Virus record (IMG/VR): IMGVR_UViG_3300042478_002150
Location: 1-48,757 of that record
Length of the DNA stretch: 48,757 nucleotides
Reading direction: 5' to 3' (one strand)
Source: a virus
In this document: positions 2,863-47,661 of the stretch, one piece after another
Position numbering within the stretch: position 1 is the first letter of the stretch
Layout of the letters: each line of letters begins with the position of its first letter
Position numbers and translations under genes: made by a program
Notes under the pieces: model-generated
Seen by the model: the letters and a program-made list of their open reading frames with translations, nothing else
Database searches by the model: none
What the model was told of the DNA's origin: nothing

Positions 2863-3722
2863 TTGAGAGCCGTCGCGAGGTCATGTTCGGTGACGTGAAC
2901 ATAATTACGCAGCACGGTAGCGATGCTGTCGCCCATCATGGCGGCGATCACCGCCGGCGGCACGCCGCGCAGCGCGGCCTTGGTTCCCCAAGTATGCCGG
3001 AAGGTGTGGGCGGTGGCATCCTCCACGCCGGCCAGGCGGGCGGCGCGGGCCCGGGTCTTGCGGGTGGAGACACCGCCCGGCACCACGTAGGGGTCGTTGC
3101 CCCGCTCGGCGCGGGCGCGCTCCAGGATCGGCCGCAGGGCCGAGTCGATCGGCACCGGCACGCGGCGCTTCTTGGTGCGCTTGCGGCCAGGCTCCCGGTA
3201 GTCGATCCGGCCCGCCTCCAGGTCCACACGGTCCCAGGTCAGATCCTCGATAGCGGTGCGGCGCGCCGCCGTCCAGCGCGCCAGCGCCAGGAAGATGTAG
3301 CCGGGGGTCAGCTTCTCCAGGTGCTCCGGCTGCACCGCCGCCATCATGGCGTCCATCTGCTCGTCGGTCAGCACCAGCGACCGCGGCTCCGCCGCGGCGG
3401 GCATGGAAATGAAGGGCACCTGGTCGGGCTGCACACCGGTGCGGCGCGAGTTGCGGGCGGCGAACCGGATCACGGCGCGCAAGTGCTGGAGCTCGCGGCG
3501 GATGGTGGAGTCGCTCACGGCCCGTCCGTTTTTGCCCTGGCGCCGTCCGCTGGAATACCGGACAAGCTCCACATCATCAATCTCGTCCACGGCCATGGCG
3601 CCGAAGTGCCGGCGGAGCGGGGCGGCGGCGTGCGTCAGGCGCTCGCGGTCGGTGACGTGCTCGGCCGCGTGGTGGGTATCGTAGAAGTCGATCAGCCAGG
3701 ACACGGTGCGCGCGGCGCTCAT
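2829..3722 (-). CDS. int: Tyrosine-type site-specific integrase
   Basis: This is a 297-aa phage integrase that joins attP to the host tRNA-Pro gene. The N-terminal SAM-like core-binding domain covers about 1-105 and the catalytic domain about 112-285. Catalytic residues visible are Arg in TAARR (154/155), a basic beta-hairpin KRTKKRR (181-187), the H239-x-x-R242-H243 box, and the nucleophile Tyr274 in NYVHV. The ATG at 3722 overlaps the repressor stop (ATGA); an in-frame extension to 3797 would sit inside the repressor gene. Overlap with the repressor implies both are made from one leftward transcript, so integrase would also be expressed in the lysogen. Confidence 0.95.
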   Translation of the reverse strand: MSAARTVSWLIDFYDTHHAAEHVTDRERLTHAAAPLRRHFGAMAVDEIDDVELVRYSSGRRQGKNGRAVSDSTIRRELQHLRAVIRFAARNSRRTGVQPDQVPFISMPAAAEPRSLVLTDEQMDAMMAAVQPEHLEKLTPGYIFLALARWTAARRTAIEDLTWDRVDLEAGRIDYREPGRKRTKKRRVPVPIDSALRPILERARAERGNDPYVVPGGVSTRKTRARAARLAGVEDATAHTFRHTWGTKAALRGVPPAVIAAMMGDSIATVLRNYVHVTEHDLATALNGQPADRIAAK

Positions 3723-4135
3723 TCCTGGATCTCCTGGAGGATGGCGAAAATCTTGGCGGCGGCGCTGGCCGGGACCATGCGGTTGACGCGGAGCCACACC
3801 GCGCCGCGCTGCCCGGCGATCTCGGTCATGGCGAACGCAGGCACCTCGTCCTGCGCCACCATGCCCATGGAGGCGGGCACCAGGTCGTCCGGTTTCATGT
3901 GCAGCGCGTCGCAGATGCGGCGGAGGCTCTTGGGGGTGGGAAACGACACGCCGCGCACGTAGGTGGAAATGAGCTCCCGCGGCAGCCCGGAGGCCCGCGC
4001 GAGGTCGGATTGGTTCATGTCCCGGTCCTGGAGGGCCTTGGCCAGCCGGCGCGCAAGCTCTTGCCGGGCAAGGTCGCGCGCTCCACCCGGGGGTGGAGAC
4101 GCGGACGGTTCCGCCAGCATGCGGGGTTTGGGCAT
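3719..4135 (-). CDS. CI-like repressor, XRE helix-turn-helix family
   Basis: This 138-aa protein has a Pro/Ala-rich N-terminus and a helix-turn-helix at about 40-72 (MNQSDLARASGL, then a recognition helix and SFPTPKSLRRICDAL). The C-terminal part (80-138) is a short sheet/helix region and not the S24 LexA-like peptidase of lambda CI, so induction by RecA-driven cleavage is not expected. It is likely the lysogeny repressor. Its own promoter contains a 17-bp palindrome (4191-4207), suggesting autoregulation. It is co-transcribed and translationally coupled with the integrase, as in P2-type phages. Confidence 0.8.
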   Translation of the reverse strand: MPKPRMLAEPSASPPPGGARDLARQELARRLAKALQDRDMNQSDLARASGLPRELISTYVRGVSFPTPKSLRRICDALHMKPDDLVPASMGMVAQDEVPAFAMTEIAGQRGAVWLRVNRMVPASAAAKIFAILQEIQE

Positions 4136-9975: not shown

Positions 9976-10004
9976 TTGACACTGACGGGGCGGTGTGTCT
10001 GAGT
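9976..10004 (+). promoter_or_regulatory. Possible promoter before the pentapeptide gene
   Basis: A perfect -35 TTGACA (9976-9981) is followed after 17 nt by CTGAGT, a poor -10. ATTGTCCG lies just downstream. The strong -35 suggests an activated or regulated promoter. Confidence 0.4.
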
Positions 10005-10056
10005 GCGATTGTCCGTCATCACAACGGACTTCACCACACACCAGGGACACCACCCC

Positions 10057-10611
10057 ATGACCACCACGAAAGACAATCTCCCGCACATTCTGGCGGAGCA
10101 TCGCAAGTGGCTCCGTGGCGAAGGTGGCTCGCGCGCCGACCTGTCGCGCGCCGACCTGTCGGGCGCCGACCTGTCGCGCGCCGACCTGTCGGGCGCCGAC
10201 CTGTCGGGCGCCGACCTGTCGCGCGCCGACCTGTCGGGCGCCAACCTGTCGGTCGCCGACCTGTCGGGCGCCGACCTGTCGCGCGCCAACCTGTCGGGCG
10301 CCGACCTGTCGGTCGCCGACCTGTCGCGCGCCGACCTGTCGGGCGCCGACCTGTCGCGCGCCGACCTGTCGGGCGCCAACCTGATCGACGGCGGCCAGCG
10401 CGTGGACGGCTACCGTATTGTGGCGTGGCTCGCGGCTGATGGGCGGATCATGATTCGGGCGGGCTGCCGCAACTTCGACATGGCGGACGCTCGCGCCCAT
10501 TGGGAGAAAACCCGGGGCGGCACACCGCTGGGCGCCGAAACTCTGGCGATCCTGAGCCACATCGAAAGCGTGGCGCGCATCCGCGGCTGGGCGGTGCGGG
10601 AGGGCGCGTGA
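10057..10611 (+). CDS. Pentapeptide-repeat protein with C-terminal phage domain
   Basis: This 184-aa protein has 17 tandem pentapeptides of the form (R/G/V)A(D/N)LS (about residues 27-110), which fold as a right-handed quadrilateral beta helix. A globular domain (110-184) follows with [24 protein letters not shown] and [14 protein letters not shown]. Pentapeptide proteins can mimic DNA and inhibit gyrase, but many have no known partner. The ATG at 10057 follows a CA-rich leader; the in-frame ATG at 10003 lies inside the promoter region. The repeats use the same codons nearly throughout, a sign of recent expansion. Confidence 0.85.
10128..10383 (+). repeat. 15-bp tandem repeat, 17 units
   Basis: The unit CTGTCGGGCGCCGAC repeats in phase with the pentapeptides. 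Variation is almost limited to one codon (GGC, CGC or GTC) and GAC/AAC. Near-identity at silent positions means the array can grow or shrink by slippage or recombination. Confidence 0.95.
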
Positions 10612-11125: not shown

Positions 11126-11446
11126 ATGACACCCGAACGACAGACGGCCCTGGAGGCCGTGGTGAAGGCTGCACGGGCGTGGCGGCAAACCAACATGCAT
11201 ATTGAACCGCATTCGAATGAAGAATGCGAAGCATATGAAAGGTTTGAGGACGCATTGCACGCCCTCGACGCCCTGCCCCCCGATCCCGCGCCTGCGGGGA
11301 ACGTGGTGGAGGTGGGCGCTGTCGAATACCGAGACGGAGAAATACGTTTTGCGCGCGTTGGCAGCGAATGGTGGGGCGGGTTGATTGACCGGCAATGGCG
11401 GCCCCTCGGCACCGTCCGCCTCCCGCTGACGGAGGGCGGGCGATGA
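11126..11446 (+). CDS. Hypothetical protein, 106 aa
   Basis: An ATG at 11126 lies after a CA-rich leader (CACCACACACCACGAGG). The N-terminal 50 residues are helical and charged; the second half has short strands (VEVGAVEYRDGEIRFARVGSEWW). Codons in the 11200-11230 stretch are more AT-rich than their neighbours. It ends in ATGA with the next gene. Function unknown. Confidence 0.6.
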   Translation: MTPERQTALEAVVKAARAWRQTNMHIEPHSNEECEAYERFEDALHALDALPPDPAPAGNVVEVGAVEYRDGEIRFARVGSEWWGGLIDRQWRPLGTVRLPLTEGGR

Positions 11447-11853
11447 ACAGCCGCACATTGACGCTGACGACGCTCAAGAAAAAAGGCGCGTGCAAGGAAC
11501 AGGTGGCGCTGTTCCGCAAGATGTTCGGCCGATCCGTGGAAATCACCGAGGCGCTGTGCGTGGAGCATGCGGCCGTGTTTAGTTGGGGATGGGCTGCGCA
11601 AAATTTGCTGACGGCGCCGGCATGGGCCGAATGCGAGCGCGTGACGGCGCCGGCACTGGCGGAATACCAGCGCGTGAGGGCGGCGGCACTGACGGAATAC
11701 CAGCGCGTGAGGGCGGCGGCACTGACGGAATACCAGCGCGTGAGGGCGGCGGCACTGACGGAATACCAGCGCGTGAGGGCGGCGGCACTGGCGGAATACC
11801 AGCGCGTGACTGCGCCGGCATGGGCGCGCGCATACATCGGAGACACGCCATGA
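11443..11853 (+). CDS. Protein with 11-residue tandem repeats, 136 aa
   Basis: Residues 1-55 form a small domain (LTLTTLKKKGACKEQVALFRKMFG, then VEITEALCVEHA). It is followed by about six copies of an 11-residue unit, AAALTEYQRVR, which would form a long amphipathic helix or coiled coil. Such tails occur in small phage proteins of unknown role, often varying in copy number. The ATG overlaps the previous stop. Confidence 0.7.
   Translation: MNSRTLTLTTLKKKGACKEQVALFRKMFGRSVEITEALCVEHAAVFSWGWAAQNLLTAPAWAECERVTAPALAEYQRVRAAALTEYQRVRAAALTEYQRVRAAALTEYQRVRAAALAEYQRVTAPAWARAYIGDTP
11612..11825 (+). repeat. 33-bp tandem repeat
   Basis: A 33-bp unit begins CGCGTGAGGGCGGCGGCACT and ends GACGGAATACCAG. 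It is repeated about four times almost identically at 11672-11803, with degenerate copies on both sides. It keeps the reading frame (11 codons) and can change copy number without a frameshift. Confidence 0.9.
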
Positions 11854-11889: not shown

Positions 11890-14235
11890 GTGAACCTCAA
11901 TCCAGACACCGAAGAACCCATCGACCGCAACGCCATCGGGCGCTTCCTGGGGGCGGTGTTCGGGCCGGTCGATTGGGAGGCCGGTCAGTCCATCGCGCTG
12001 CGTGGGTTGGGCGAAAAGGGCACGTTGGCCGAGGGGCTGTTCCGGGAGCAGCAATGGGCCGACTGGTCGCCGCCGGATGGCGGGGCCGGCGCCATCGCCA
12101 CGCACGCCGAACGCTGGCGGGGGGTGAACGGGGGCGCGTTCCTGATCCCCGGCGTGATGCGGCCCGAGTCGCTGGAGAACCGGCGCCAGACCGAGGCGGA
12201 CGTGGCCTGGCTTACCTCCGTTGTGGTGGACCTGGACAATCCGGACACCGCCGAGGACAGCCTGCTCCGCCTGGAGCACGCGCTGGGGCCGGCGGGCATC
12301 GTGGTGGAAAGCTCGCCCGGGAAGCTGCACGCCTATTGGCTGCTGGATGAGCCGGAAGATCCAGCGCGCGTCGCGCGCCTGCGGCATCTGTTGGCGCTCA
12401 AGGCGGGCGGCGATCCCTCGTTCCAGCGCATCCCGCAGGTGATCCGGATTCCCGGCACGGACCACCAGAAGAACGGTGGCCGGTTCCGCGTCTGGATGCG
12501 TCATTGCGACCCGGACTGCCGGCACTCGATTTCCGGGATCGAGGAACGAATCCAGGATCTTCACCCGCTGCCGTGGGCGTCAGACCAAGCCCTGGCGATG
12601 GCCGCGCAGGGCACGCTCACTCTGTCCGGATTGGAAGCTGGCAACTGGACCGCGCGGGAGCGACTCACCCAGGACGTGCACGCCGGCGGGCAGGGCGCGG
12701 CGACTCGGTGGGATGCGGCGTCCCAGGTGTTCGGGCATTACGTGCACTCGGTCCGGACTGGCGCCATTGCGACCGCCGACGAGGCCCGCGCGCTGGCGCA
12801 GGGCTGGATGCTGGCGCACATGCAGCCGCCGTGGCCGCCCGAGCGGTTCGATCAGGAATGGTCCGCCATTGTGCGCCTGGACGTGGAGCGGCACGGGCCT
12901 CTCGTGGCGCCGGCGCAGCTCTACGGGAGCGGGCGCGTGGAGGTGCCGGCGGCGCAGGGCGCCGGGTTGGAGGCAGGCGACATCCGCGGCTGGGCGGTGC
13001 ACCGATGGGTGCCGCCGGAGGCGCCGCCCGAGCGCAAGTGGCTGGTGCGGGGGCTGATCCGCACCGGGGCCACGCATGTGCTCGCCAGCGAGGGCGGGGT
13101 GGGCAAAACGTTCGCGCTCCTGGATCTGTGCATGGCCGTGGCCGAAGGCGCAGAGGGCACGCAATGGCTGGGACAGCCGATCGACCCGCGCCACACCGGC
13201 GGCACGGCGGTGTTGCTGACCGCCGAGGACGACGAGGACGAGCTGCGCATCAGGTTGCACGACATGGACCCGACCGGCCGGCGGTTCCGGACGGCGGACC
13301 GCTTCATCGTGCTGCCCTTGGTGCAGGCCGGCGGCGTGTTCCCGCTGGCGGAGATAGGGCCAGGCGGCACGTCCCGGCCCACGCCGGCCTGGCAGCGCAT
13401 GATGGACGCGCTGACCGCGCTGCCGAACCTCCAGCTCGTGGCGGTGGACACCATGGCGGCCACGCTGCACGGGGAGGAAAACGCCTCGATCATCGTGCAG
13501 CAATACATGACCGCGCTGGCGCTGATCCGGGCGAAGCACCCGCAGGTGGCCACGTTCGTGACTCACCACGTCCGGAAACAGGGCACCAAGGACGCGCCCA
13601 TCCAGTCGGCCAGCGACATGCGCCAGGCGATCCGTGGGTCCAACGCGCTGCTGGGCGCGGCGCGCATGGTGCTGGGGGTGTGGCAGCCGCCCGACTATGC
13701 GGACCGGCTCAAGCGCATGAACAAGCCGGCCAAGCCCGGCACGTTGTTTCACTTCGCGGTGGTGAAGGCGAACAACCCGGAGGCGATGAGCGACATGCGG
13801 ACCCTGGTGCGCGCAGCGCACGGAGGGTTGGAGGACGCGACCGCGCTGGACCGGGCCACGAGTAAGACGGACGAGCATATCGCGTGGCTGGTGGCGGCCG
13901 TCGAGCGGGCGGTTGCGGCCGGGCTGCCCTACAACACGACCGGCAAGAACGGGCTGGCCGGCGACCGCAAGGGCGAGCTGCCGCCCGCCCTCAAGATGAA
14001 CGACAAGGCGCTGATCGCCCTGGTGGAGCACGCGACCGGCGACGGTGGCCGGCTGGTCAACTCCAAGGCGGGCAGCGGCCACGGCTATCTGGATGTGCCT
14101 GGCGGGCCGCTGGCCAAACCGGACCCGCTGGATGGCTACACGCTGGGGAAGGGGGCACACACCCCCGACTGGAGCGGCTGGACCTACAACCGGATGTTGG
14201 GGGCGGCGCAGCCGCCCGTGGGAGGTGGAGTGTGA
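11890..14235 (+). CDS. RepB-like primase fused to RepA-like helicase
   Basis: This 781-aa replication initiator has an N-terminal archaeo-eukaryotic-type primase region (about 60-230) with the acidic pair in VVVDLDN (108-114), HAYWLLDEP and the QRIPQVIRIPG/DHQKNG block typical of RepB primases. A C-terminal RecA-like ATPase domain (about 375-600) has Walker A SEGGVGKT (400-407) and Walker B LVAVDT (515-520), as in RepA hexameric helicases. An iteron cluster follows 0.2 kb downstream, so it likely starts replication there. GTG 11890 is preceded by GGGAGGGTGACGCT; an 11-codon ORF at 11850-11885 bridges it to the previous gene. No polymerase was found nearby. Confidence 0.85.
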   Translation: MNLNPDTEEPIDRNAIGRFLGAVFGPVDWEAGQSIALRGLGEKGTLAEGLFREQQWADWSPPDGGAGAIATHAERWRGVNGGAFLIPGVMRPESLENRRQTEADVAWLTSVVVDLDNPDTAEDSLLRLEHALGPAGIVVESSPGKLHAYWLLDEPEDPARVARLRHLLALKAGGDPSFQRIPQVIRIPGTDHQKNGGRFRVWMRHCDPDCRHSISGIEERIQDLHPLPWASDQALAMAAQGTLTLSGLEAGNWTARERLTQDVHAGGQGAATRWDAASQVFGHYVHSVRTGAIATADEARALAQGWMLAHMQPPWPPERFDQEWSAIVRLDVERHGPLVAPAQLYGSGRVEVPAAQGAGLEAGDIRGWAVHRWVPPEAPPERKWLVRGLIRTGATHVLASEGGVGKTFALLDLCMAVAEGAEGTQWLGQPIDPRHTGGTAVLLTAEDDEDELRIRLHDMDPTGRRFRTADRFIVLPLVQAGGVFPLAEIGPGGTSRPTPAWQRMMDALTALPNLQLVAVDTMAATLHGEENASIIVQQYMTALALIRAKHPQVATFVTHHVRKQGTKDAPIQSASDMRQAIRGSNALLGAARMVLGVWQPPDYADRLKRMNKPAKPGTLFHFAVVKANNPEAMSDMRTLVRAAHGGLEDATALDRATSKTDEHIAWLVAAVERAVAAGLPYNTTGKNGLAGDRKGELPPALKMNDKALIALVEHATGDGGRLVNSKAGSGHGYLDVPGGPLAKPDPLDGYTLGKGAHTPDWSGWTYNRMLGAAQPPVGGGV

Positions 14236-14483
14236 CACTACAGGAGGCGCACAGGCGCGCGCTGGCGAAAGCGGCTGACGCGCTGATCTACGAGGACTCC
14301 ATGGCGCGAAGCACCGGCGAGCACTTCGCACAGATCACCATTGCGGCATACCAGACGCAGATGCTTGCGGATGGGTGGATGTGGACGAAGGCGGGAATCC
14401 CACCGCACGAGACACCCGGACACGTTGGAATTGACCCCACCCCAAATTCCAACGCTCAGCCCGTTGGAACCGCAAACCCTTGA
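14232..14483 (+). CDS. Hypothetical protein overlapping the origin, 83 aa
   Basis: The GTG at 14232 overlaps the primase stop (GTGA). The first 50 residues look like a helical small protein (LQEAHRRALAKAADALIYEDS, with AAYQTQMLADGWMW). The last 20 are low complexity because the reading frame passes through three iterons. Function unknown; position suggests a replication accessory. Confidence 0.55.
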   Translation: MTLQEAHRRALAKAADALIYEDSMARSTGEHFAQITIAAYQTQMLADGWMWTKAGIPPHETPGHVGIDPTPNSNAQPVGTANP

Positions 14484-14577
14484 AAAGGCGGCGTTGGATC
14501 GCTGGAATGGAATTTTCGTTCCAACGGTTCCAACGCCTAAATTAACCCAATAATTTCAATGCGTTGGAAGATTGGAA
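14423..14577. repeat. Iteron cluster, candidate replication origin
   Basis: The word CGTTGGAA, or its complement TTCCAACG, occurs at 14423, 14447(-), 14462, 14519(-), 14528(-) and 14562. Close variants lie at 14492 (one change), 14500 (one change) and 14570 (two changes). Copies lie in both orientations around an AT-rich stretch (14538-14560). Iterons next to a RepA/RepB-type gene mark plasmid and phage origins, so this is the likely ori. Direct evidence of initiation is lacking. Confidence 0.75.
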
Positions 14578-14585
14578 GCCGTTTG

Positions 14586-14671
14586 CTCTCTTAGAGAGAG
14601 ATATAAATATCCTCTCTCTAAGGGAGAGTGTAACTCTCCCAAGAGAGGGGCTCTCAGAGAGGCGCGCGTTC
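14586..14671. repeat. CTCTC/GAGAG inverted-repeat block with AT-rich apex
   Basis: A long hairpin pairs CTTAGAGAGAG (14590-14600) with CTCTCTCTAAG (14612-14622); the apex ATATAAATAT pairs further, leaving one bulge. Next to it GGGAGAGT and ACTCTCCC (14622-14640) make a perfect 8-bp stem with a 3-nt loop, and more CTCTC/GAGAG arms follow to 14671. The arms can pair in several ways. This is suited to DNA unwinding or cruciform formation beside the iterons, or to transcription termination before the resolvase gene. Confidence 0.75.
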
Positions 14672-14722: not shown

Positions 14723-15367
14723 ATGGACGACGATGAAGACGGCGAGCACGACCCCCGGATGGATGGCGCGATGGCGGTCATGGCGATGGGGCCGCCCCGC
14801 CTGTCGGATGAGGGGCTGACCCTGCAATTCGGGTGGAGGGGCGACATGGTGATGACCTCGGGGGCGGATCTGGCGAGCGGCTGGATACTCGGAACGCCCG
14901 CGCCCCTGCCCAGGCCGCGGTTTGTCCGGGGACGGGTGGTGTCATGGCGCGCCGCTGGGCGGGCTACAGGGCTGTGGAGGGCTCGGGTGGTATCGTCGCT
15001 GCGGACAGCGGCGGACAGCCTTGGGGATGCCCTGGAGGGCGTGCGCGGGGGGTGTGATCTGGCGGTGTCGCTGCGGTTCGTGTTCCCGACCGTGGATGTG
15101 GGCTTGCACGGGGCGCCGCACACGCGCCGGCCGGACACGGACAACCTCGCAAAGCTCTGGATGGACGCGGCCCAGGAGGTGGGACTCCTGCTCGGGCAGG
15201 ATGACGCCAGCGTGGCTGGCCTGGAATCCTGGAAGGTGTGGGGCGCCGTGGGTGGGTGCGGCTGGACCCTGCGGGCGCTGGAGCGGGTGGAGCCGGGCCA
15301 GGATAGGGTTGCGGCGGGGCGCTGGTGGGAAACGGACGCGCCCGAATGGGTGGGCGGCGAGCGGTAG
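14723..15367 (+). CDS. RusA-like Holliday junction resolvase
   Basis: This 214-aa protein has a RusA domain in its second half. The catalytic acidic cluster is visible as RPDTDNLAK (D138, D140), the helix ending in D148, and D160-D161 followed by K171, the usual order of the family. The N-terminal 60 residues are extra. ATG 14723 is chosen because it follows a CTATTGTCCGGAAT promoter-like word and GGAAGGC; an in-frame ATG at 14564 would place the iteron-side hairpins inside the gene. It would resolve junctions before packaging. Confidence 0.8.
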   Translation: MDDDEDGEHDPRMDGAMAVMAMGPPRLSDEGLTLQFGWRGDMVMTSGADLASGWILGTPAPLPRPRFVRGRVVSWRAAGRATGLWRARVVSSLRTAADSLGDALEGVRGGCDLAVSLRFVFPTVDVGLHGAPHTRRPDTDNLAKLWMDAAQEVGLLLGQDDASVAGLESWKVWGAVGGCGWTLRALERVEPGQDRVAAGRWWETDAPEWVGGER

Positions 15368-17997: not shown

Positions 17998-18843
17998 CTA
18001 GTCGGGGGCGTAAGTGGCGAGGTGCTTCCTGATCCACGCGAGGGGGTCCGCAATGCTGGCGTCGCTGATGTGCGGGGCGGGAATCAAGAGGGAGTCGCCA
18101 AGGTGCGGGAGGGCTTGCGCCACGATGCCGGAATACCCTTCGGGGGAGAGGCGCGCGCCAAACGGCCAGCCGCCGTCAAAACCATACTCACCCTTGGCGG
18201 TGGCGTAGGTGATGCGGCGGGCGAATCCGACATGGCCAAGGATGAAGGCGGCGCGGGCGAGGTCTAGGGGGGCCGTGTCGATCTTTACCCATTGGAAAAT
18301 CCCATTGGTCCAGCCCTGCGCGCCAGACCCCGCAACCGCCCAACACTCGACGGGGCGGCGGGCAGCCAGAAGGCGCACAAGCGCCACGATGGCGGCGCCA
18401 CGATTCATCATGTCGCGCGTCGAAATTGTGCCGGAGCAAACGACATCCACCACAATGCCAAGGGGGGCGGCCTCGTCCATCGTCCGCACGCGGCGGCGCA
18501 TGGCCATGGGGGCGCCGGCAAGGTGCGCTGGCACGCAAGGGATACCGCCGGCCACGTCCAAGCGGGTGACGGTGCGGGGGGTGGGCATGTCTAGCGCGGT
18601 TTCAATCTCGGTCAACATTGCATCGGATGCGGCGGCGCAGGCGTTGTCACCATGGGCGATTGCGGCCAAGGCTTGGGCGCGGGTCACGCTGCCGAACCAT
18701 TCGCGGCGCCCGGCGGTGGGTTCCTCATGGCGGTGGCTGGTGACGTATGCGTGATACTCGGACGCATCGGCACAAACGACGTGGTGCGCTTTGCGGCCAG
18801 GGGCGGCGGCTTCGGGAGCGTCAAGGGTGAAGATGCGGGCCAT
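17998..18843 (-). CDS. Partner protein of the AAA+ ATPase, 281 aa
   Basis: This protein is coupled to the AAA+ gene upstream: TAG of that gene and this ATG are five bases apart. Residues 130-185 read IVVDVVCSGTIS, MMNRGAAIVALVRLLAARRPVECWAV, a beta-alpha-beta order like the core of a von Willebrand A domain, but without a full DxSxS metal site. The rest is alpha/beta with several Trp and His. MoxR/CobS-type ATPases usually work with a VWA partner, so this is likely that partner. I recall similar phage proteins listed as DUF7192, but could not check. Exact role unknown. Confidence 0.65.
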   Translation of the reverse strand: MARIFTLDAPEAAAPGRKAHHVVCADASEYHAYVTSHRHEEPTAGRREWFGSVTRAQALAAIAHGDNACAAASDAMLTEIETALDMPTPRTVTRLDVAGGIPCVPAHLAGAPMAMRRRVRTMDEAAPLGIVVDVVCSGTISTRDMMNRGAAIVALVRLLAARRPVECWAVAGSGAQGWTNGIFQWVKIDTAPLDLARAAFILGHVGFARRITYATAKGEYGFDGGWPFGARLSPEGYSGIVAQALPHLGDSLLIPAPHISDASIADPLAWIRKHLATYAPD

Positions 18844-18847
18844 GGGT

Positions 18848-20176
18848 CTAGCCTTCGATCTGCTGGCGCTGGGCGGGCGCGAGGTTCGCGAGGTAGGTGA
18901 TACCGGCGGCGTCGTCCGGTGTCATTCCGGACGCAATGAGCGCGGCGCCGGCGTAGGTGGTGCGGGGGTCGATGATAACCTTAAGCCCGGCCTCCTGGGC
19001 GCGACGGCGGGCACGCTGCACGCGATCGCACCATGCGGGATTGCCAGACAAGGCGCGCTCGGTGTTCTCGTCGTAGGTCCAGCCGAGTCGGATCGGGAAG
19101 CGGGACATGAACGCCGCGTCGATCCGGGACCGGCCAACGAATTCCGCAGTTGCGCCCATTCCCCAAGTGTTGGCGGTGGCGATGCAAATGAAGTCGGGAT
19201 GCATCTTCACGGCGCCGTCCGGGAAGGTGCACGCGCCGTTTGCGAGGGCGCCGTTCAAGGCCAGCAAGGCCGCGTTGTCGGATGCGTCAACCTCGTCAAA
19301 GCAATAGATGCCGCCGAGCTCGTAAGCGGCGCGGAACGCGGTGCCGTGGTAGGTTCCGCCCGCGTCCTGGTAGCCGAGTAGGGCGTAGGGGTCGGCAAGG
19401 GCGCCGTTGTGGTGGAAGGCGAGGGCGAGGGCTTCGGCTACCTGCTTCGCGGCGTGGGTCTTGCCGCTACCGGTCGGGCCGGCGATCCAGACTCCCATAC
19501 CGCCCCGGCCCCGCACGGCCTGACAGGCGGCCAGGAGCTTCGGCAGCATGGGGTGGGCGATACCTTCGATGCGGCGGGGCTCGGCGCCGTCCGTCCGGAT
19601 TTCGATGGTCAGCGGCTTGTGCGCCTTGGCGAGTTCCTCGGCCACGATGGCGCGCACGGTGTCGGCGTCCACATGCGTGGCCTTGGGCTGCATGGCGGCC
19701 AGGGCGGCGGCCAGGGCGGTTGCGGCGGATGCCACGTCCGGGGCCATTGCGGACGGGGCGGGCGTGGGAGTGGGTTCGTGTTCGATGGTGGGGGCCGGGC
19801 GGCGGGTGCCGGGGCGGAGATCAAGGGCGTTCATGGTGGGGGGTTCCGTGGTGGTGGTGGTGGTGTCGGTCGGCACATAGTGGTGCGTGGCATAGAAGGC
19901 GGGGACGCTGCGGCCGTGGGGGCGCAGCAAGGCGGCAAGCTGGTGGTTGTCGGGGTCGATCCATGCGCAGGTAAGCGCTTCTAGGCCAAGGCTGCGGGCT
20001 GCATCGGACGGAACGCCGCACGCGGTCAGCCATGCGCGGACCGGGCCACGGTTGCCACTATGAATCGCGATGTGGGACGCGGGGTTGCCATTCGCGCGGA
20101 AGCAGTCGCGGGGGCCGTAGGCTTCAAGACAAGCGGCGTGGGCTTCCTCTACGGATAGGGCGGGGGTTCGGGCCAT
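18848..20176 (-). CDS. CobS/MoxR-like AAA+ ATPase with N-terminal extension
   Basis: This 442-aa protein has an AAA_5-type domain (about 205-410) with Walker A GPTGSGKT (233-240), Walker B CFDEVD (292-297), sensor 1 ATANT (333-337) and the arginine finger region MSRF (357-360). Residues 1-100 form a separate small domain with two Cys. They are joined by VPTDTTTTTTEPPT, which is the translation of a CA-rich leader, and a Met at 115 (19834) follows it. So a second, 328-aa product may start at 19834, or two genes were fused by loss of a stop. Such ATPases remodel protein complexes or insert metal ions (CobS) with a VWA partner; that partner follows. Confidence 0.8.
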   Translation of the reverse strand: MARTPALSVEEAHAACLEAYGPRDCFRANGNPASHIAIHSGNRGPVRAWLTACGVPSDAARSLGLEALTCAWIDPDNHQLAALLRPHGRSVPAFYATHHYVPTDTTTTTTEPPTMNALDLRPGTRRPAPTIEHEPTPTPAPSAMAPDVASAATALAAALAAMQPKATHVDADTVRAIVAEELAKAHKPLTIEIRTDGAEPRRIEGIAHPMLPKLLAACQAVRGRGGMGVWIAGPTGSGKTHAAKQVAEALALAFHHNGALADPYALLGYQDAGGTYHGTAFRAAYELGGIYCFDEVDASDNAALLALNGALANGACTFPDGAVKMHPDFICIATANTWGMGATAEFVGRSRIDAAFMSRFPIRLGWTYDENTERALSGNPAWCDRVQRARRRAQEAGLKVIIDPRTTYAGAALIASGMTPDDAAGITYLANLAPAQRQQIEG

Positions 20177-20230
20177 GTGGTGTGGTGGCTCCTGGGTGGT
20201 GGTGTGGTGTAGGCTGTAGTCCGGTCCCGT

Positions 20231-20287
20231 TCCTCTCATTGGATCGCGTTGACTGTCAAGTGGCGAAATCGCGTGGTTTCACGATTT
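20231..20287. promoter_or_regulatory. Divergent promoter/operator region
   Basis: TTGACTGTCAA (20249-20259) supplies a -35 for both strands: TTGACA leftward and TTGACT rightward. Clear -10 boxes are missing on both sides. An inverted repeat AAATCGCG/CACGATTT (20266-20287, one mismatch, 6-nt centre) lies on the rightward side. The region separates the leftward AAA+ operon from the packaging genes and is likely regulated. Confidence 0.5.
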
Positions 20288-39895: not shown

Positions 39896-42100
39896 GTGGC
39901 AATCCAGCCCAACTATCTGGCGCGCGGCGGCGACCCCTACGCGGGGCAGGCCGCGATCAACGAAGATTCGATGGCCAGCATCGGCACGGCGCTGTTTGGC
40001 AACCCGCAGGTGGCCGGGCAGCGCGCGCTCCGCACGGCGCAGGCGGAGCAAATCGGGCTGGAGAACGAGCGGGCCCGGCGCGGCCTGGAGTATGGCGACC
40101 GCTTCGGCGCAGACATGGCCGGTGTGTTCACGGTCAAGAATCCGGACGGCAGCACGCGCCCCGCCACCTTTGCCGAGGCCGCGCCGCGGCTGGGCGACCT
40201 GTTCAAGTCCGCCTATTGGGCGAACAACGGCGACCCGACCCGCACCGCCAACTGGCTGCGCGCCTTCACGGCGATGACCGGTAACGAGGATCTGACCCGG
40301 GCCGGCTACGCCGCGTCCGGCCTGGCGCTGGGTCCGGATTTTGCGGCCACGACCGGCCGCGCCGATCAGGTGCAGGCCCGCAACGCCGCGTCCGACAAGG
40401 ACCGCGCCACGGCTGTGGCGGGAATTGGGGCGGGGGCGACCGTCCAGGCCGCGCGGATCGGCCAGGAAGGCGCGGCCACGCGCCAGCGCGACGAGCTCAA
40501 GTGGAAGTCGGAGAACCCCACCTACGACCAAGTGCGCGCCCGCACGACGCAGACCTTCGTGGATGACCCCCTGCTGGGGCCGGACCAGCGCACGGAGCGG
40601 CAGGAGCTCATTGTGGCCCCGGGCGTCCAGACCGCGCGGGAGCGCGCGGCCGGACAGGCGCAGGCAGCGAGGGAGCGAGGCGACGCGAGCGTGCGCGTCG
40701 CAGAGATCCGCGGCCTGTCGGCCGAGAACGTGGCGCGCCTGGTGCAAGAGGGCAAGGTGACGGCGGCTGACATCGCCGCGCACGCCCGGGTGGAGGCGGC
40801 GGAGACGACTGCCGGCGCCACGGTGACGGCGGCGGACAAGGCCGCTGCCGCCCGGGTGGAGGCGGCGGTGATCGGGCTCCAGGGCACGCAGGACACGAAC
40901 ACGACCCGCCGTGACATCGCCCAAGGGAACAACCAGACGCAGCTTGCGACCACGGCCATGCGTGGGGCATCCAGCGAACGTGTGGCGGAGTTGACGGCGC
41001 AGGGGCGAGTCGACGCTGCGGACGCGGCGGCACATTCGCGGGTGGAGGCGGCGCGCCTGCGGGGCGACGCGCAGATTGCCTCCGCGGACCTTGCCGCGCA
41101 CGCCCGGGTGGAGGCGACCGCTGCGGTGGGGCAGACCGCCCGCGATGTGGCCAACACCAATGCGTCCGCACGGCGCGATACCGCGTCCACGGCAGCAAGC
41201 GCCGCCCGCGATGTGGCCAACACAGCGGCGGACGCACGACGCGATACGGCCCTCATCCAAGGCGAGACGGCGCAGAATGTGGCGGCCACACGCGCCAACG
41301 CCTCTGTTGTTGTGGCTGATCTGGCGAAGCAGGGGCGTATCTCTGTGGCAGAATCGGCGGCGTGGTCGCGCGTGGAGGCGGCGAAGGCCAGCGGCAGCGC
41401 ACAGATTGCCGCTGCGGACTTGTCCGCCCACGCCCGCGTTCAAGCCGCGCTCGCAGCCGCGCAAGCCGCGCGTGACGTGGCCGAGACGGGTGCTTCGGCG
41501 CGTCGCGATGTGGCTTCCACAGCGGCGGGGGCGGCCCGTGATGTAGCCACCGCCGCCGCCGGCTCCCGCACGGAAGCGGCGCAAATTCAGGCCGATGCCG
41601 ACCGCGACGTTGCCGCCACGCGCGCCGGCGCGCCGAAGCCCGCCATCGCCATTCCGTCCGCCGTGTCGAAGGGCTGGGATACCGAAATCGAGGCGCTGGT
41701 GGGCGAGTCGAACTTCTCGGTGAACGACGAGGCCAAGCTGTGGCTCAAGCAACGCGCCGGCGAAATCTACCAGCAGCCGGGCCCGGGGCAGCGGAACTCC
41801 ACCGCGGCCATGCGGCAAGCCTGGGAGGACTTCAAGGCGGCCGATCCGGCAAACACGCGTGGGAGCCTGGGGCGCATGCTGTTCAGCCCTCGTTTTGGCG
41901 CTCCCACCCCGCCGTCCGGCACGGCGCCACTGGTGCCTGGCCGTTCCGCCGCGCCTGCGGCGCCCGCCACCCCCGCTGCCGGCGCGACCCCGCCCCGTCC
42001 GCCGAACGTGCCCCCGGGCAGCGCCTACAGCCCGAGCCGCGATATGTGGCGCGCGCCTGACGGACGCATGTTCACCAAGGACGGAGTGCCTGCGGCGTGA
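39896..42100 (+). CDS. Internal virion protein with long Ala-rich coiled coil, 734 aa
   Basis: Residues 1-230 are mixed and contain NPTYDQVRARTTQTFVDDP. From about 240 to 580 an unbroken Ala-rich helix has repeated blocks such as AADxAAHARVEAA (at least five) and ARRDxAxTAA. A short domain (GWDTEIEALVGES, 580-670) and a Pro/Ala tail follow. This is a rod-like ejection protein comparable in place to T7 gp15. The start is GTG 39896; the stop overlaps the next gene. Confidence 0.65.
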   Translation: MAIQPNYLARGGDPYAGQAAINEDSMASIGTALFGNPQVAGQRALRTAQAEQIGLENERARRGLEYGDRFGADMAGVFTVKNPDGSTRPATFAEAAPRLGDLFKSAYWANNGDPTRTANWLRAFTAMTGNEDLTRAGYAASGLALGPDFAATTGRADQVQARNAASDKDRATAVAGIGAGATVQAARIGQEGAATRQRDELKWKSENPTYDQVRARTTQTFVDDPLLGPDQRTERQELIVAPGVQTARERAAGQAQAARERGDASVRVAEIRGLSAENVARLVQEGKVTAADIAAHARVEAAETTAGATVTAADKAAAARVEAAVIGLQGTQDTNTTRRDIAQGNNQTQLATTAMRGASSERVAELTAQGRVDAADAAAHSRVEAARLRGDAQIASADLAAHARVEATAAVGQTARDVANTNASARRDTASTAASAARDVANTAADARRDTALIQGETAQNVAATRANASVVVADLAKQGRISVAESAAWSRVEAAKASGSAQIAAADLSAHARVQAALAAAQAARDVAETGASARRDVASTAAGAARDVATAAAGSRTEAAQIQADADRDVAATRAGAPKPAIAIPSAVSKGWDTEIEALVGESNFSVNDEAKLWLKQRAGEIYQQPGPGQRNSTAAMRQAWEDFKAADPANTRGSLGRMLFSPRFGAPTPPSGTAPLVPGRSAAPAAPATPAAGATPPRPPNVPPGSAYSPSRDMWRAPDGRMFTKDGVPAA

Positions 42101-45100
42101 GCGGCGCACAGCAAGACGATTGGATCGTTCCGGACGCCGGCGACGATTGGGTGGTGCCGGACGCCGCCCCTGCCCGCCCCGGCCTGGGCGATCGGTTCCG
42201 CCTGAACGCGGAGGACGGCTACCGCGGCACCCTGATGGGCGCCACGCAGAACTACATCGAAAGCCAATTCGACGCGCCACCGGCGCCGGCCATCCTGCGG
42301 GAGCCGCCGGGCGCCTTCCCGGCGCTGCCGGGCGTGGGCCCGAACGCGCAACGCGAGGATCTGCTTCGGCTGTTCCAGGAAGGCGTGGCGCAGAACCCGG
42401 CGCAGGCCGCTCCGCCCGTGGTGGGGCAGCAGCGCGCGGCGGAGATGGCGGACTTCCGCCGGCGCGACGCGGCGATGCCATCGTGGACGACCGCCCCGAC
42501 CTGGGGCGGCATGGCGCTGGAAGGCGGCGCGGCCCTGGCGGGCCAGCTTGCCGGCGGCATGCTGTCGCCGGAGAACCTGGTGGGGCCGCTGGCCGGCGGC
42601 GCGCGGCGCGCCGGGCAGGGCGCCATGTCCTACCTGGGCAACCTGTTTGCCCGCGGCGCCGCCACGCAGGCCCCGGTGGCCGGTGTGGCGAATGTCGGCG
42701 TGCAGGGCCTCGATATGGCCGCCGGTGACAAACAGGCGTTCTCACCCGAGGAAGTGGCCCTGGCCACGGCGCTGGGTGGCGCCTTGGGCGGCGGCCTGAA
42801 CGCGACTCCCGGCCTGGCGCGCATGGCGATCGCCCGCATCCGCGAATTCCGGACAGCGCAGGGCGCCACGCCCGAACAGGTGAACGCGCCGGTCACGCCG
42901 GAGGAAGCCCTGGCCACATGGTCCAGCGAGGACGTGCGCGCGTTGGCGGCGGCCAACGGCGTGACGGACCCGGCGGGCCCCTTCGTGGCCCGCATCGAAG
43001 AACGGCTGGGCCTGCGGCGCGCCGCGGAAGCCGACCCCCTGGAGGCGGCGCGGCAGCGGGTCGACGCCGTGAACCTGCCGCAAGGCCAGGCACCGCAGAC
43101 TCCGGCGCAGCAGGTGGCGCGCCTTCTGCCGGAGGTCGAGGACCAGGTGGCCGGCGAGGTCGAGTCCGGCATGCGGTTCCTGCCGAAGCGGCCGGAAGAT
43201 CCGCCGCCGCTGGACCAAGAGGTGGCCGCCGGCGTCAACACGCGCCTGCGCTCCCTGGTGCCGGGGTTGGAGCCGCGGCCGGAGCCGCCGCCGGTCATCG
43301 CCCTGCCGGGCGAGAACGGCCGCGTGCGCGGCCAGATCATCGAGCCGAACGCGCGTGATCTGTCGTCGCCCCGCGAGGTGACGGTGCCGGTGCGCGGCAC
43401 CGGCGAACCTGGCGTGCAGGCGGGCGCGGAATTGCGGACGGGGCAGGGCACCGCGTTGGTGCCGGTGGAGCGTCCCGTGACCGACCCCGCGCCGCGCGCC
43501 ATGGACACCGGCGAGGTGGCTCGTGCGCAGGCGCAGAACGCCGGCGGGACGCTCCCGGCCGAAGCGCGCCTGGCGCGCGTGGTGCAGGAAGTGGATGCCG
43601 ACATTGCCGCCCGGCGCGTGCCGCGGGCGCAGCGCCGGCAGGAAATCATGGCGCGCCTGGCGGCGCAGGACATCCCCGAACCCCTCCGCGTGGGCGCGGA
43701 GACTCCGCCGCGCGGGCTGGAGCCGCCGACGCCGCCGCAGACCTACGCCGGGCAGAACCGCGAAGCCATCGCCGCCCGCGAGGGCTCCCGCCCGTCCGGA
43801 AACGACCGCCCGCCGGGCTGGACGGGCGATCGCCCCCCGGACGGCACGCCCCCGCCGCCCACGCCCAGGCCGCCCGAGCCCCGCCCGCCGGAAGGTGGCC
43901 GCGCCCCGGAGCCGGACGCGCCCGCACCCCCCGACATGACCCCGTGGCGCTCCGCCGCGGACAAGGCCACCGCGCGCGCGGCGGCGCTACGGCAGGAAGC
44001 CGCCGCGCTGCGCGAGAGTCGGTTCACGCGAGTGGCGCAGAGGGGCGAGAAATCCCGCAGCAAGGAAATGGCCACGCTGGACCGGACGATCGCCGCGAAG
44101 GACCGCCGGGCCGAGGCGTTGGAGGGGCGCGCGAAGGTGCTGGAGCGCGCCATGCAGGACATGGCCGAGGGCCGGCAGCCGCCGGTCCGGCTGGCTTACG
44201 ATGATCCGGCCGCCAATGCGCCTGCGGTGCCGGGCAAGCCGGTGCCGCCCACCAGCGCGGTGCAGCGTATCCGCGAGCTGGGCGGCATGCGCGATGACCG
44301 CGGCGACTTCGTGCGCTACCAGATCCCCGGCCTGGTGAACAACCGGGCGGATTTGACGTGGGAGCAGATGGTCGACCGCCTCGCGGTGGAGGGGTATTTC
44401 CCCGAGCGGCGCGCGGAGATAGAGAACACCACGCGGCCGGACGAAATCAACACCAAGAATCTTCTCACCGAGGCGATCGAGGAAACCCAGGCCGGGAATC
44501 CCCGCTACACCCCCGAGGAATGGGCGGACTACGAGGCCCGCGTGGGCGAGCGTAAAGTGGCGATCGAGCAAGCCCGCGAGGTGGCGAATGCGTTGGGGCT
44601 GTCCGAGGGCGAGGTGCGCGGCCTGTCGCGCGGCCAGGTGGCGGACCTGCTGCGCGACATTCGCAGCCAGGACGAGCTCGCGGCGCTGATCCGCAGCGCG
44701 GACGAGGCGCACGCGGCGGACCTTGCGGACTTCGAGGCCCGGATGAATGATCCGGACGAGTTCAATTCCAACCTCCCGCCGCTTGACGAGGAACGCGCTC
44801 GCAGCCGGCCGGCGACCCAGGAGGACATCGAGCGTGTCCCGCCCCCCGACAGTGAGAGCGACTACCGACCCTCTGGAGACGGAGAGGCTGGCGGACAAGG
44901 TGCTGGCCGACCCGAAGGCCAGCGCAGCGCAGAAGGCCGCGGCCAAGAGGCTCAAGGGCAGCTCGATCGCGCTCCAGATCGCCCGGATGGCGGCGGCACG
45001 GGGCAACCAAGGGATGAAGTCGGGCGTGACGGACAAGGGGCCGGGCGCGAGGCAGCCCGTGCCGAAGGGCAATCCGGACAGCAACGCGACCTGATCCCCA

Positions 45101-47661
45101 ACGAGCGCCCGGCCATCCAGGCGCAGGCGGCGCGCGACGCCGCCGGCAACAAGGGCAAGGTGCCGCAGAAGGGCGTTGAGGACTTCGCCCTGTTCGATCC
45201 GGACGCGCGCAACCAGAAGAACCTCGACATCGAGGGCGCGGCGCAGCGCACCGCGGACGAGGTGAACAAGGGGCTGGGCAACAAGCTCTACGGCGGCTTC
45301 CCGCCGGGCGACCCGGACTTCTGGCGGTTCCTGTTCGGGCCGGTCAGCAAGAAGTTGATCCAGCCGTTCGCGGATGCCTTCAAGGAGATGAACGACGCGC
45401 GCGTGGGCTCGCGTGAGGCCGTGCGCGCTCAGGACAACCGCACCCCCCGCGCGCCCGGCATCGAGGACAAAGTGGCGGCGATCCGGTGGATGAACGCCGC
45501 GGTCCGCGCTGTCACCTATGGCGACGGCATCAACATGCGCGCCATCGCCGATCGCCTGCCCGCGCGCGCCAAGGCGGCCCTGCACGAGTTCCTAGACGGG
45601 TGGCACGCTAATGCCGGCCGCGCCGGCAGCGGAAAGGGCGCGACCTACGGCGAGGGTGTCGAGGCACGGTTTCTCAGCGCGACCAACGACCTGAATCGGA
45701 TCTTGCAGCCCGTTCTCAAGGGTGGCCGCGTGGTGGCGGACAAGGCCGGTATGGAGCAGATCGTGCGCCTGGTGCAGAACCCCAGCCAGATCCGGCCAGG
45801 CACCCCGCTCCACGATGCGGCTGCCGGTATCCGCGACTGGCTCAAGAGCCAGCGCGATTACATGGTGCGCCACGGCGTCGAGATTGGGGAGATCAAGCGA
45901 GGCTACTTCCCTCGCCGCCTGGACACGGACGCCGTGTGGGCCAACCAGACCGGCTTCCTCCAAGCTGCGGAGCGCGCCTACCGCGCGTCCGGAATGGGCG
46001 CGGTGGAGGCGAAGGCAGCCGCGACCGCGTGGCTGGATCAGATCAAGCACAACGGCGCCGACCCCACCAACCCGATTGCACACAAGGGCGGCCCTGGCCT
46101 GGCGCCGGACCATGTGTCTGAGCGCGTGCTGGCCAAGAGCGCCGACGAACACCTGTCCGCTTTCCTGCTGAAAGACCCGCTCCAGACCCTTGTGGGCTAC
46201 GCGCACACATCCGCCCGCCGGGCGGAGCTCGCGCGGGTGATGGGTGCCGAGAACGAAGCCTGGACCAAGCTGGCCGATGCCTTCCGCGCGGACGGCGCGG
46301 AGGCCGCGCTGGAGCGCGTGGGCGACTTCGTGCGGACGCAAACCGGGCACACTGGCGGCGAGTGGCAGAACCGCCCCGGGCTCCAGAAGTTCGTTGGGTG
46401 GGTGCGCCTTTGGGGGGCCATGGGCACGCTCTCCAAGGCCGCCATATCCTCGCTCACGGAGGTGTTCGCCACCGGCGCGCGCTCCGGCCGCGTGATCGAC
46501 TCCTGGCACTCCGCGCGCACCGCGGTGGGCTACTGGATGGGCAAGGAGTCCGGCGAGCGGTTGCGCCTGCTGGCCGAGGACATCGGCACGATGACCAACC
46601 ATCTGGCCGGCAGCATGGCCGCCGCGCGCTGGACGGGCGGCCGTCCGGCCGCTGGGTTCCAGGCGGCCGTGACCGAGAAGTATTTCCGGATGAACATGCT
46701 GGAACAGCTCACCAGCGGCCTCAACATCGGGGCCACCGGCGTGGGCGAGACGTTCATCCGCCGCATGGCCAGCGACCTTGGGGTGGAGGGGCGCTATGGC
46801 CGCCAGGCGGCGTTCGCCCTGGCAGAGTTGGGCATCGCGCGCGACAAGCACGCGGCGTTCGCGAAGTGGCTCAACGGCCGCGGCAAGGTCGCCATGACCG
46901 CGGAGGCGCTGAGCCAGGCCCCCAAGGAAATGGCCGATGCCTACCGCGCGGCCATGTTCCGGTTCGTGTCGCAGTCGGTGATGCGGACGGGCCCGGTCAG
47001 CCGTCCGCGCTGGGCGAACAACCCTCTGGGGAGTCTCGCTTTCCATCTGAGCGCGTATTCCTACGCCGTGCATGACAACGTGCTACTGCGCGCGAAGCGC
47101 CTCTACCAGAACGGCGACCTGACCACCGGTGATAAGCTGGTGATGTCCGGCAAGATGCTGGCCAGCCTGGTGCTGGCGATCCCGACGCAGCTTGCCTTGG
47201 GCGAGGCGCGCATGGCGATCTACGACTCCGAAAAGAGCCGTAAGGCCGCCGAGGAAAACCGCGGGGCGAACGCCGTCAGTCGCGCGGGGTTCTTCACCGG
47301 AGCCTTCGATCCGTGGCTCCAGCTCATCGGCGGGGTGCGGTATCGCAAGTCGCTGTCCGAGTCCGTCTTGGGGCCGACGATCGGGCGCGCTCTTGGCGCG
47401 GCCACGGTGGGCGTGGACCGGGTGCAGAGCACGATCAACCCATTCGGGCCGGACAAGAAGTCCAGCGATACCGAGAAGCGGAAAGTTGCTGCTGCCATCT
47501 ACGATATGGGGTTCCAGCCGGCCGCCAATCTCGCGGGCACGTTCGCGCCCCTGCCGATCGGGCAGGTAATCACGCAGGTGATGGGCGCGGCCCGGACCCG
47601 CGAGGCGTACATGACGGCCGCCGGCGCCCCGCCACCCCGGGACAACCGCCGGCGCAATTGA
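42097..47661 (+). CDS. Giant internal virion / DNA-ejection protein, 1854 aa
   Basis: This is the largest gene. The N-terminus repeats DDWIVPDAG/DDWVVPDA, followed by a Gly/Ala-rich hydrophobic part (about 130-230), a Pro-rich disordered middle (400-620), coiled coil (625-690), and a long C-terminal region (about 1150-1750) with GKGATYGEGVEARFLS, IKRGYFPRRLD and SLAFHLSAYSYAVHDN. It is comparable to T7 gp16 and to large polyvalent-type proteins. A murein-lytic domain would be expected somewhere, but no motif could be assigned. GTG start overlaps the previous stop. Confidence 0.7.
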   Translation: MSGAQQDDWIVPDAGDDWVVPDAAPARPGLGDRFRLNAEDGYRGTLMGATQNYIESQFDAPPAPAILREPPGAFPALPGVGPNAQREDLLRLFQEGVAQNPAQAAPPVVGQQRAAEMADFRRRDAAMPSWTTAPTWGGMALEGGAALAGQLAGGMLSPENLVGPLAGGARRAGQGAMSYLGNLFARGAATQAPVAGVANVGVQGLDMAAGDKQAFSPEEVALATALGGALGGGLNATPGLARMAIARIREFRTAQGATPEQVNAPVTPEEALATWSSEDVRALAAANGVTDPAGPFVARIEERLGLRRAAEADPLEAARQRVDAVNLPQGQAPQTPAQQVARLLPEVEDQVAGEVESGMRFLPKRPEDPPPLDQEVAAGVNTRLRSLVPGLEPRPEPPPVIALPGENGRVRGQIIEPNARDLSSPREVTVPVRGTGEPGVQAGAELRTGQGTALVPVERPVTDPAPRAMDTGEVARAQAQNAGGTLPAEARLARVVQEVDADIAARRVPRAQRRQEIMARLAAQDIPEPLRVGAETPPRGLEPPTPPQTYAGQNREAIAAREGSRPSGNDRPPGWTGDRPPDGTPPPPTPRPPEPRPPEGGRAPEPDAPAPPDMTPWRSAADKATARAAALRQEAAALRESRFTRVAQRGEKSRSKEMATLDRTIAAKDRRAEALEGRAKVLERAMQDMAEGRQPPVRLAYDDPAANAPAVPGKPVPPTSAVQRIRELGGMRDDRGDFVRYQIPGLVNNRADLTWEQMVDRLAVEGYFPERRAEIENTTRPDEINTKNLLTEAIEETQAGNPRYTPEEWADYEARVGERKVAIEQAREVANALGLSEGEVRGLSRGQVADLLRDIRSQDELAALIRSADEAHAADLADFEARMNDPDEFNSNLPPLDEERARSRPATQEDIERVPPPDSESDYRPSGDGEAGGQGAGRPEGQRSAEGRGQEAQGQLDRAPDRPDGGGTGQPRDEVGRDGQGAGREAARAEGQSGQQRDLIPNERPAIQAQAARDAAGNKGKVPQKGVEDFALFDPDARNQKNLDIEGAAQRTADEVNKGLGNKLYGGFPPGDPDFWRFLFGPVSKKLIQPFADAFKEMNDARVGSREAVRAQDNRTPRAPGIEDKVAAIRWMNAAVRAVTYGDGINMRAIADRLPARAKAALHEFLDGWHANAGRAGSGKGATYGEGVEARFLSATNDLNRILQPVLKGGRVVADKAGMEQIVRLVQNPSQIRPGTPLHDAAAGIRDWLKSQRDYMVRHGVEIGEIKRGYFPRRLDTDAVWANQTGFLQAAERAYRASGMGAVEAKAAATAWLDQIKHNGADPTNPIAHKGGPGLAPDHVSERVLAKSADEHLSAFLLKDPLQTLVGYAHTSARRAELARVMGAENEAWTKLADAFRADGAEAALERVGDFVRTQTGHTGGEWQNRPGLQKFVGWVRLWGAMGTLSKAAISSLTEVFATGARSGRVIDSWHSARTAVGYWMGKESGERLRLLAEDIGTMTNHLAGSMAAARWTGGRPAAGFQAAVTEKYFRMNMLEQLTSGLNIGATGVGETFIRRMASDLGVEGRYGRQAAFALAELGIARDKHAAFAKWLNGRGKVAMTAEALSQAPKEMADAYRAAMFRFVSQSVMRTGPVSRPRWANNPLGSLAFHLSAYSYAVHDNVLLRAKRLYQNGDLTTGDKLVMSGKMLASLVLAIPTQLALGEARMAIYDSEKSRKAAEENRGANAVSRAGFFTGAFDPWLQLIGGVRYRKSLSESVLGPTIGRALGAATVGVDRVQSTINPFGPDKKSSDTEKRKVAAAIYDMGFQPAANLAGTFAPLPIGQVITQVMGAARTREAYMTAAGAPPPRDNRRRN

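Follow-up and report, generated by a model that had tools for sequence, protein, structure and literature searches.

An iteron- and hairpin-containing locus, very probably a replication origin, downstream of a primase-helicase gene in a phage genome

Gene content and organisation of the locus

The window analysed here is the complete IMG/VR virus record IMGVR_UViG_3300042478_002150, with a length of 48,757 bp. Its first and last 592 bp match except for 44 mismatches, and the genome is therefore probably circular or terminally redundant. The mismatches between the two end repeats (1-592 and 48166-48757) are found mostly mid-repeat (about 219-470), within a DUF1937 gene, and represent either strain variation at the circular join or two alleles of this gene. 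The locus under study contains the following features:

11890-14235, plus strand: initiator gene (781 aa), a primase-helicase fusion (PF16793 RepB_primase and PF13481 AAA_25)
14232-14483, plus strand: 83-aa ORF without a family, overlapping the helicase stop (GTGA)
14423-14569, both strands: iteron array with six exact copies of CGTTGGAA, at 14423 (+), 14447 (-), 14462 (+), 14519 (-), 14528 (-) and 14562 (+)
14474-14488, plus strand: AT-rich box AAACCCTTGAAAAGG, a candidate melting element that resembles the TAAGTCATTGAAAA boxes of relatives
14492-14499 and 14500-14507, plus strand: near iterons with one mismatch
14537-14561, minus strand: second AT-rich box, CATTGAAATTATTGGGTTAATTTAG
14570-14577, plus strand: near iteron with two mismatches, just outside the array
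14580-14600, plus strand: CGTTTG tail and hairpin 1 (CTCTCT-tag-AGAGAG at 14586-14600), a candidate single-strand priming site
14590-14622, plus strand: hairpin 2, 15 bp with one bulged C and an all-AT apex
14622-14640, no strand assigned: hairpin 3, GGGAGAGT/gta/ACTCTCCC, a perfect stem of 8 bp
14641-14662, no strand assigned: extra CTCTC/GAGAG arms, with which the hairpin cluster can form a closed, branched structure
14723-15367, plus strand: RusA-like Holliday junction resolvase, the next gene 3' of the putative origin region

The product of the initiator gene starts with a RepB-type primase domain (PF16793 at aa 113-196, 28.5 bits against a cutoff of 24.3), followed by a RepA-type helicase domain (PF13481 AAA_25 at aa 378-565) whose profile matches RSF1010 RepA (E = 1.5e-20; structures 1g8y, 1nlf and 1olo). 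This confirms the gene fusion that had been proposed in the initial annotation. For the C-terminal domain (about aa 644-781) neither a Pfam family nor a convincing PDB match was obtained. Its identification as RepC was not supported (hhalign probability 0.1%, with a RepC profile made from two sequences only), and no RepC gene was seen near the initiator gene.

The repeats had been described as lying directly downstream of the fusion gene. They do lie downstream, but the 83-aa ORF is situated in between. The first repeats overlap the 3' end of this ORF, in agreement with the claim that the iterons enter the end of a coding frame, and GC3 drops from 0.78 to 0.50 where they do so. Probably, the 3' end of the ORF is constrained by the first iterons it contains.

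Further replication and recombination genes in the window encode a Sak4-like protein, a helicase and a Cas4-like exonuclease. Both a large terminase (8 kb from the repeats) and an integrase are encoded as well, which bears out the phage setting, and a small repressor-like ORF (3719-4135, minus strand; judged by eye only) adjoins the integrase. Based on this combination of genes, the window is probably derived from a temperate phage.

Several other genes were recorded. A pentapeptide-repeat protein (PF00805, 3e-34), possibly a DNA mimic, is encoded at 10003-10611 by DNA with strong repeats, and a small protein without a Pfam family at 11395-11853 contains tandem AAALTEYQRVR copies. An AAA_5 ATPase (18848-20239, minus strand) matches phrog_249, which is labelled 'porphyrin biosynthesis', and adjoins a phrog_1909 protein (17998-18843). 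Two neighbouring very large ORFs at 39896-47661 (734 and 1854 aa) are both without a Pfam match.

Iterons and AT-rich elements

Exact CGTTGGAA is present only six times in the entire record, and every copy is located at 14423-14569. Dinucleotide shuffles of the whole record contained 1.07 copies on average and six were reached in none of 100; likewise, when the 480 bp downstream region was shuffled 100 times, no 8-mer ever reached six copies within 260 bp. The reported six exact copies in both orientations were thus recovered in the full record, in excess of the shuffled sequences. Of the three near copies that had been reported, two have one mismatch, and the third holds only if the copy with two mismatches at 14570-14577 is counted.

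The 50-mer with the lowest G + C content of the record (34%) begins at 14511, in line with the AT-rich centre noticed before. The TTGAAAA box is present in the window as CCCTTGAAAAGG, and as CATTGAAATTATT on the minus strand. The window therefore shows what is looked for in an iteron origin: a short motif clustered near an initiator gene beyond chance, with an adjoining AT-rich region. The detrended GC skew of the circularised record turned at 7.7 and 25.7 kb and not at 14.4 kb; since the genes are strand-biased, the skew is confounded by gene strand and uninformative here.

Conservation of the layout in relatives

No close relatives were obtained, either by DNA blast or when viral and genome contigs were scanned with single proteins, and distant relatives were therefore used for comparison. 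Homologues found by tblastn (26-35% identity) were those of Rhizobium phage RHph_Y3_1, Wolbachia phage WO and four plasmid records. RHph_Y3_1 contains eight CGTTCCCA copies and a hairpin directly 3' of the helicase gene. Azospirillum and Agarilytica have different short repeats directly 3' of the gene, in each case followed by a hairpin. Profile searches added 75 viral loci, 80 viral loci with a RepB-type N-terminus and 46 genome loci. Reduction at 80% protein identity resulted in a conservation set of 60 non-redundant loci, all distant relatives.

In 36 of the 60 loci a single 8-mer was present four or more times near or after the helicase stop (500 bp), against 7 of 565 control windows from elsewhere in the same loci, which included coding DNA and were unmatched for intergenic DNA (odds ratio about 120, Fisher p 2e-35). 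In 10 of the 60, no 8-mer was present in three or more exact copies close to the gene. The repeat sequence differs by group (CGTTCCCA, CGTTTCCA, CATTTCCA, ACTTCCCG, ACTTCCGC, AGTTGCCA, CAGTTTCG, CTAACTCC and others), whereas its position is constant across phages, prophages and plasmids. The expectation that the repeats would be conserved in relatives consequently holds for position and not for sequence. In some loci intervening DNA displaces the array to 0.5-2.4 kb 3' of the helicase gene (among others L019 and L037, about 2.1-2.4 kb from the helicase stop, and L055-L080, 0.5-1.8 kb). The idea that iterons are missing where the C-terminal domain differs proved wrong, as many such loci have arrays 0.5-1.8 kb further off. 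The densest arrays, with 9-10 exact and about 18 near CGTTCCCA copies, were seen in two Magnetococcales contigs (L244 and L255), within 360 bp of the helicase stop.

The TTGAAAA box is a second shared element. With the iterons masked it was present in 14 of 37 loci, where 2.1 were expected, often in the form of TAAGTCATTGAAAA.

Because many other phages and plasmids show this layout behind related genes, region 14423-14662 is very probably where replication starts: on comparative grounds, we consider it the predicted origin of a temperate phage, read by the initiator that is encoded just upstream. The positional conservation of the repeats beside homologous helicase genes likewise supports the plasmid-like phage origin put forward in the initial annotation. 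Packaging (pac/cos) and partition sites also have repeats and hairpins, and such a site could have come to lie beside a replication gene by chance; in locus L002 the terminase genes are about 2.5-3 kb downstream. We regard this as very improbable. The same repeat type occupies the same place in a 72-kb plasmid (Agarilytica pSU2), the neighbours of the helicase gene differ between loci while the AAA_25 helicase is the constant partner, and the large terminase gene of the window is far from the repeats.

Overlapping hairpins next to the iterons

Both hairpins that had been indicated downstream of the repeats were found, the long one with its all-AT apex (14590-14622) and the second perfect stem (14622-14640). 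Hairpin 1 (14586-14600) is a third one, absent from the initial annotation. It overlaps hairpin 2: its right arm is part of the left arm of hairpin 2, so that on one strand only one of the two can form at a time. The layout of hairpin 1 matches the TTTGCCCCTCT-ttc-AGAGGGG of relatives; CGTTTGCTCTCT-tag-AGAGAG in the window is closely similar to CGTTTGCCCCTCT-ttc-AGAGGGG in L020. Read on the minus strand, hairpin 3 has a TAC loop, as does hairpin 1 in several relatives. Folded as single-stranded DNA, the 83 nt from 14580 to 14662 reached about -20 kcal/mol on either strand, which was far better than shuffled sequences on both strands (z -4.3, 0/200).

Many arrays have at their far end two overlapping hairpins that share one arm, A', which can pair either with arm A or with a third arm. 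As iterons mimic inverted repeats, the scan for this element used iteron masking and control windows. A score of at least 16 was obtained for 17 of the 60 origin regions and for 9 of 628 control windows. The stems are unalike between loci, with retention of the pairing (CCCCTCT/AGAGGGG, TATATAT, CCCATAC/GTATGGG, CTTTCTTT and CCTTACTTA). In L074 (5128-5430) the usual order is reversed: the helicase gene is followed first by the hairpin element, on the opposite strand, and then by the repeats. A module that acts as DNA would fit this better than an mRNA terminator for the helicase gene.

The latter observation bears on a regulatory explanation, in which the repeats are an operator for repression by the initiator or another phage protein and the hairpins a terminator or attenuator between helicase and RusA. 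Iterons often double as autoregulation sites, the element is intergenic, its two alternative hairpins are attenuator-like, and on the minus strand one site weakly resembles a terminator. However, the coding strand has no terminator-like site and no sigma-70-like promoter, and the hairpin region gave no Rfam match. The arrays are located 3' of the initiator gene and not in front of it, in other loci intervening DNA parts the repeats from the helicase gene, and in L074 the hairpin element is gene-proximal and on the other strand, with the gene orientation unchanged. An operator with an attenuator is therefore improbable, and we retain the interpretation of the region as a replication origin.

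Suggested exchange of initiator domains and probable reader of the iterons

The primase that is fused to the helicase varies between loci, being of the TOPRIM type in L008, L036, L074 and L078 and a Prim-Pol in L055. Iteron arrays are retained with each of the three fused primase types (TOPRIM, Prim-Pol and RepB), and the hairpin element is not specific to the RepB primase, as it is also present with TOPRIM helicases. This suggests a modular initiator, of which the primase and DNA-reading domains are exchanged while the helicase and the origin layout are retained.

Across groups, similarity of the iterons correlated with similarity of the C-terminal domain when the helicase was controlled for (partial r 0.41-0.51, p<0.001). 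Among 58 loci the value was 0.51, against -0.03 for the helicase with the C-terminal domain controlled for. Within the C-terminal-domain type of the window no domain-specific covariation was found (partial r 0.16, p 0.066), and covariation with the helicase was stronger (0.32, p<0.001). The assignment thus leans on differences between groups and on the analogy with SaPI Rep and Cch2 (PMC7581432), from which the C-terminal domain is likely to be the part that binds the CGTTGGAA iterons.

The stronger helicase covariation within the window's own type, and the retention of the hairpin element with unrelated primases, would also fit a true origin of which the iterons are read by a host factor, the 83-aa product or the helicase core, and/or of which the hairpins are cruciform or structural and not primer sites. 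This is the less likely reading. In the relatives that were examined the arrays generally start soon after the helicase stop, without an ORF like the 83-aa one; between domain types the iterons vary with the C-terminal domain; and several relatives have TTTACCC/TTTGCCC tails in front of hairpin 1 that are reminiscent of the ssi layout of the RSF1010 type. Recognition by the C-terminal domain remains the reading we favour.

Comparison with known replicons and proposed mechanism

The phage P4 alpha protein is a fusion of primase, helicase and DNA-binding domains, and the helicases of SaPI Rep, SCCmec Cch2 and P4 alpha belong to families other than the RecA-fold RepA type. In the window, as in these three systems, the iterons are situated 3' of the helicase gene, but its helicase does belong to the RecA-fold RepA type (PF13481, with RSF1010 RepA nearest). 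We know of no overlapping hairpin element in SaPI, SCCmec or P4 origins. In SaPI Rep and Cch2, it is the C-terminal domain of the protein that binds the iterons situated 3' of its helicase gene (PMC7581432).

In RSF1010 the work is divided over three proteins: RepC for binding of the iterons, RepA for unwinding and RepB' for priming. Each strand has one ssi hairpin as its priming site, where RepB' makes contact with the 5' tail and with the first hairpin pair (PMC4434180; PMC4234260). An IncQ1 relative, which stood in for RSF1010 in the comparison of gene order, has the order RepB primase, RepA, RepC, cargo, iterons and hairpins (with RepC and oriV identified by inspection of the sequence). 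The window shares with RSF1010/IncQ oriV the RepA-family helicase, the RepB-type primase domain and the order primase-helicase-origin, with iterons and then hairpins 3' of the rep genes. It differs in that a single fused protein takes the place of three; the iterons are short (8 bp) and present in both orientations, where those of RSF1010/IncQ are direct and ~20 bp long; RepC homology is not detectable; and the hairpins overlap, where RSF1010/IncQ has two separate ssi sites, each on its own strand. The locus appears to work like an IncQ replicon, and we read it as the RSF1010 (IncQ) replicon in one-protein form, with repeats, a melting region and hairpin priming sites; it was not classified as an IncQ replicon, because the C-terminal domain is not detectably RepC.

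In the mechanism that we propose, the C-terminal domain of the 781-aa protein would bind the CGTTGGAA iterons, after which the bound RepA-type helicase would melt and then enter the adjoining AT-rich DNA. The single strands thus exposed would fold into hairpins acting as ssi (single-strand initiation) sites, where the attached primase would prime and a host polymerase would extend the primer. The three-protein scheme of RSF1010 would in this way be merged in one polypeptide, with the origin beside its own gene. Priming at the hairpins is a more tentative part of this scheme than binding of the iterons.

By analogy, pRN1 is a second functional parallel. As in phage BIP-1, primase and helicase are fused and an origin stem-loop is located just 3' of the gene; unlike the window, pRN1 has an SF3 helicase and one stem-loop of ~100 bp, and iterons are not key (PMC4234260). 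Wolbachia phage WO gp5 and RHph_Y3_1 have a homologous helicase and C-terminal domain (about 30-35% identical), but the match leaves out the RepB-type N-terminus of the window. In the open-access literature no published origin assignment was found for either.

More speculatively, these loci could belong to a large replicon class that has not been described in the open-access literature, with a RepA-type helicase, swappable primases and C-terminal DNA readers, and an adjacent origin with a core of three arms. As the middle arm pairs with either neighbour, each strand might show a different hairpin after melting; the two priming sites that would result, in about 45 bp, could set direction or coordinate the strands. 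The compact hairpin element, conserved in shape and not in sequence, is a possible DNA priming signal comparable with the RSF1010 ssi sites. A testable rule is to seek origins within about 0.5 kb 3' of an AAA_25 helicase gene, which would apply to many proteobacterial phages, prophages and plasmids.

Repeat arrays elsewhere in viral contigs

The exact 8-mer alone is not a marker of this family, since none of 77 stretches with CGTTGGAANCGTTGGAA arrays elsewhere in viral contigs encodes a relative of the initiator. In a viral contig (L110, 9150-9230), of which the stretch covered encodes no such relative, nine copies of CGTTGGAA follow each other at an exact spacing of 9 bp.
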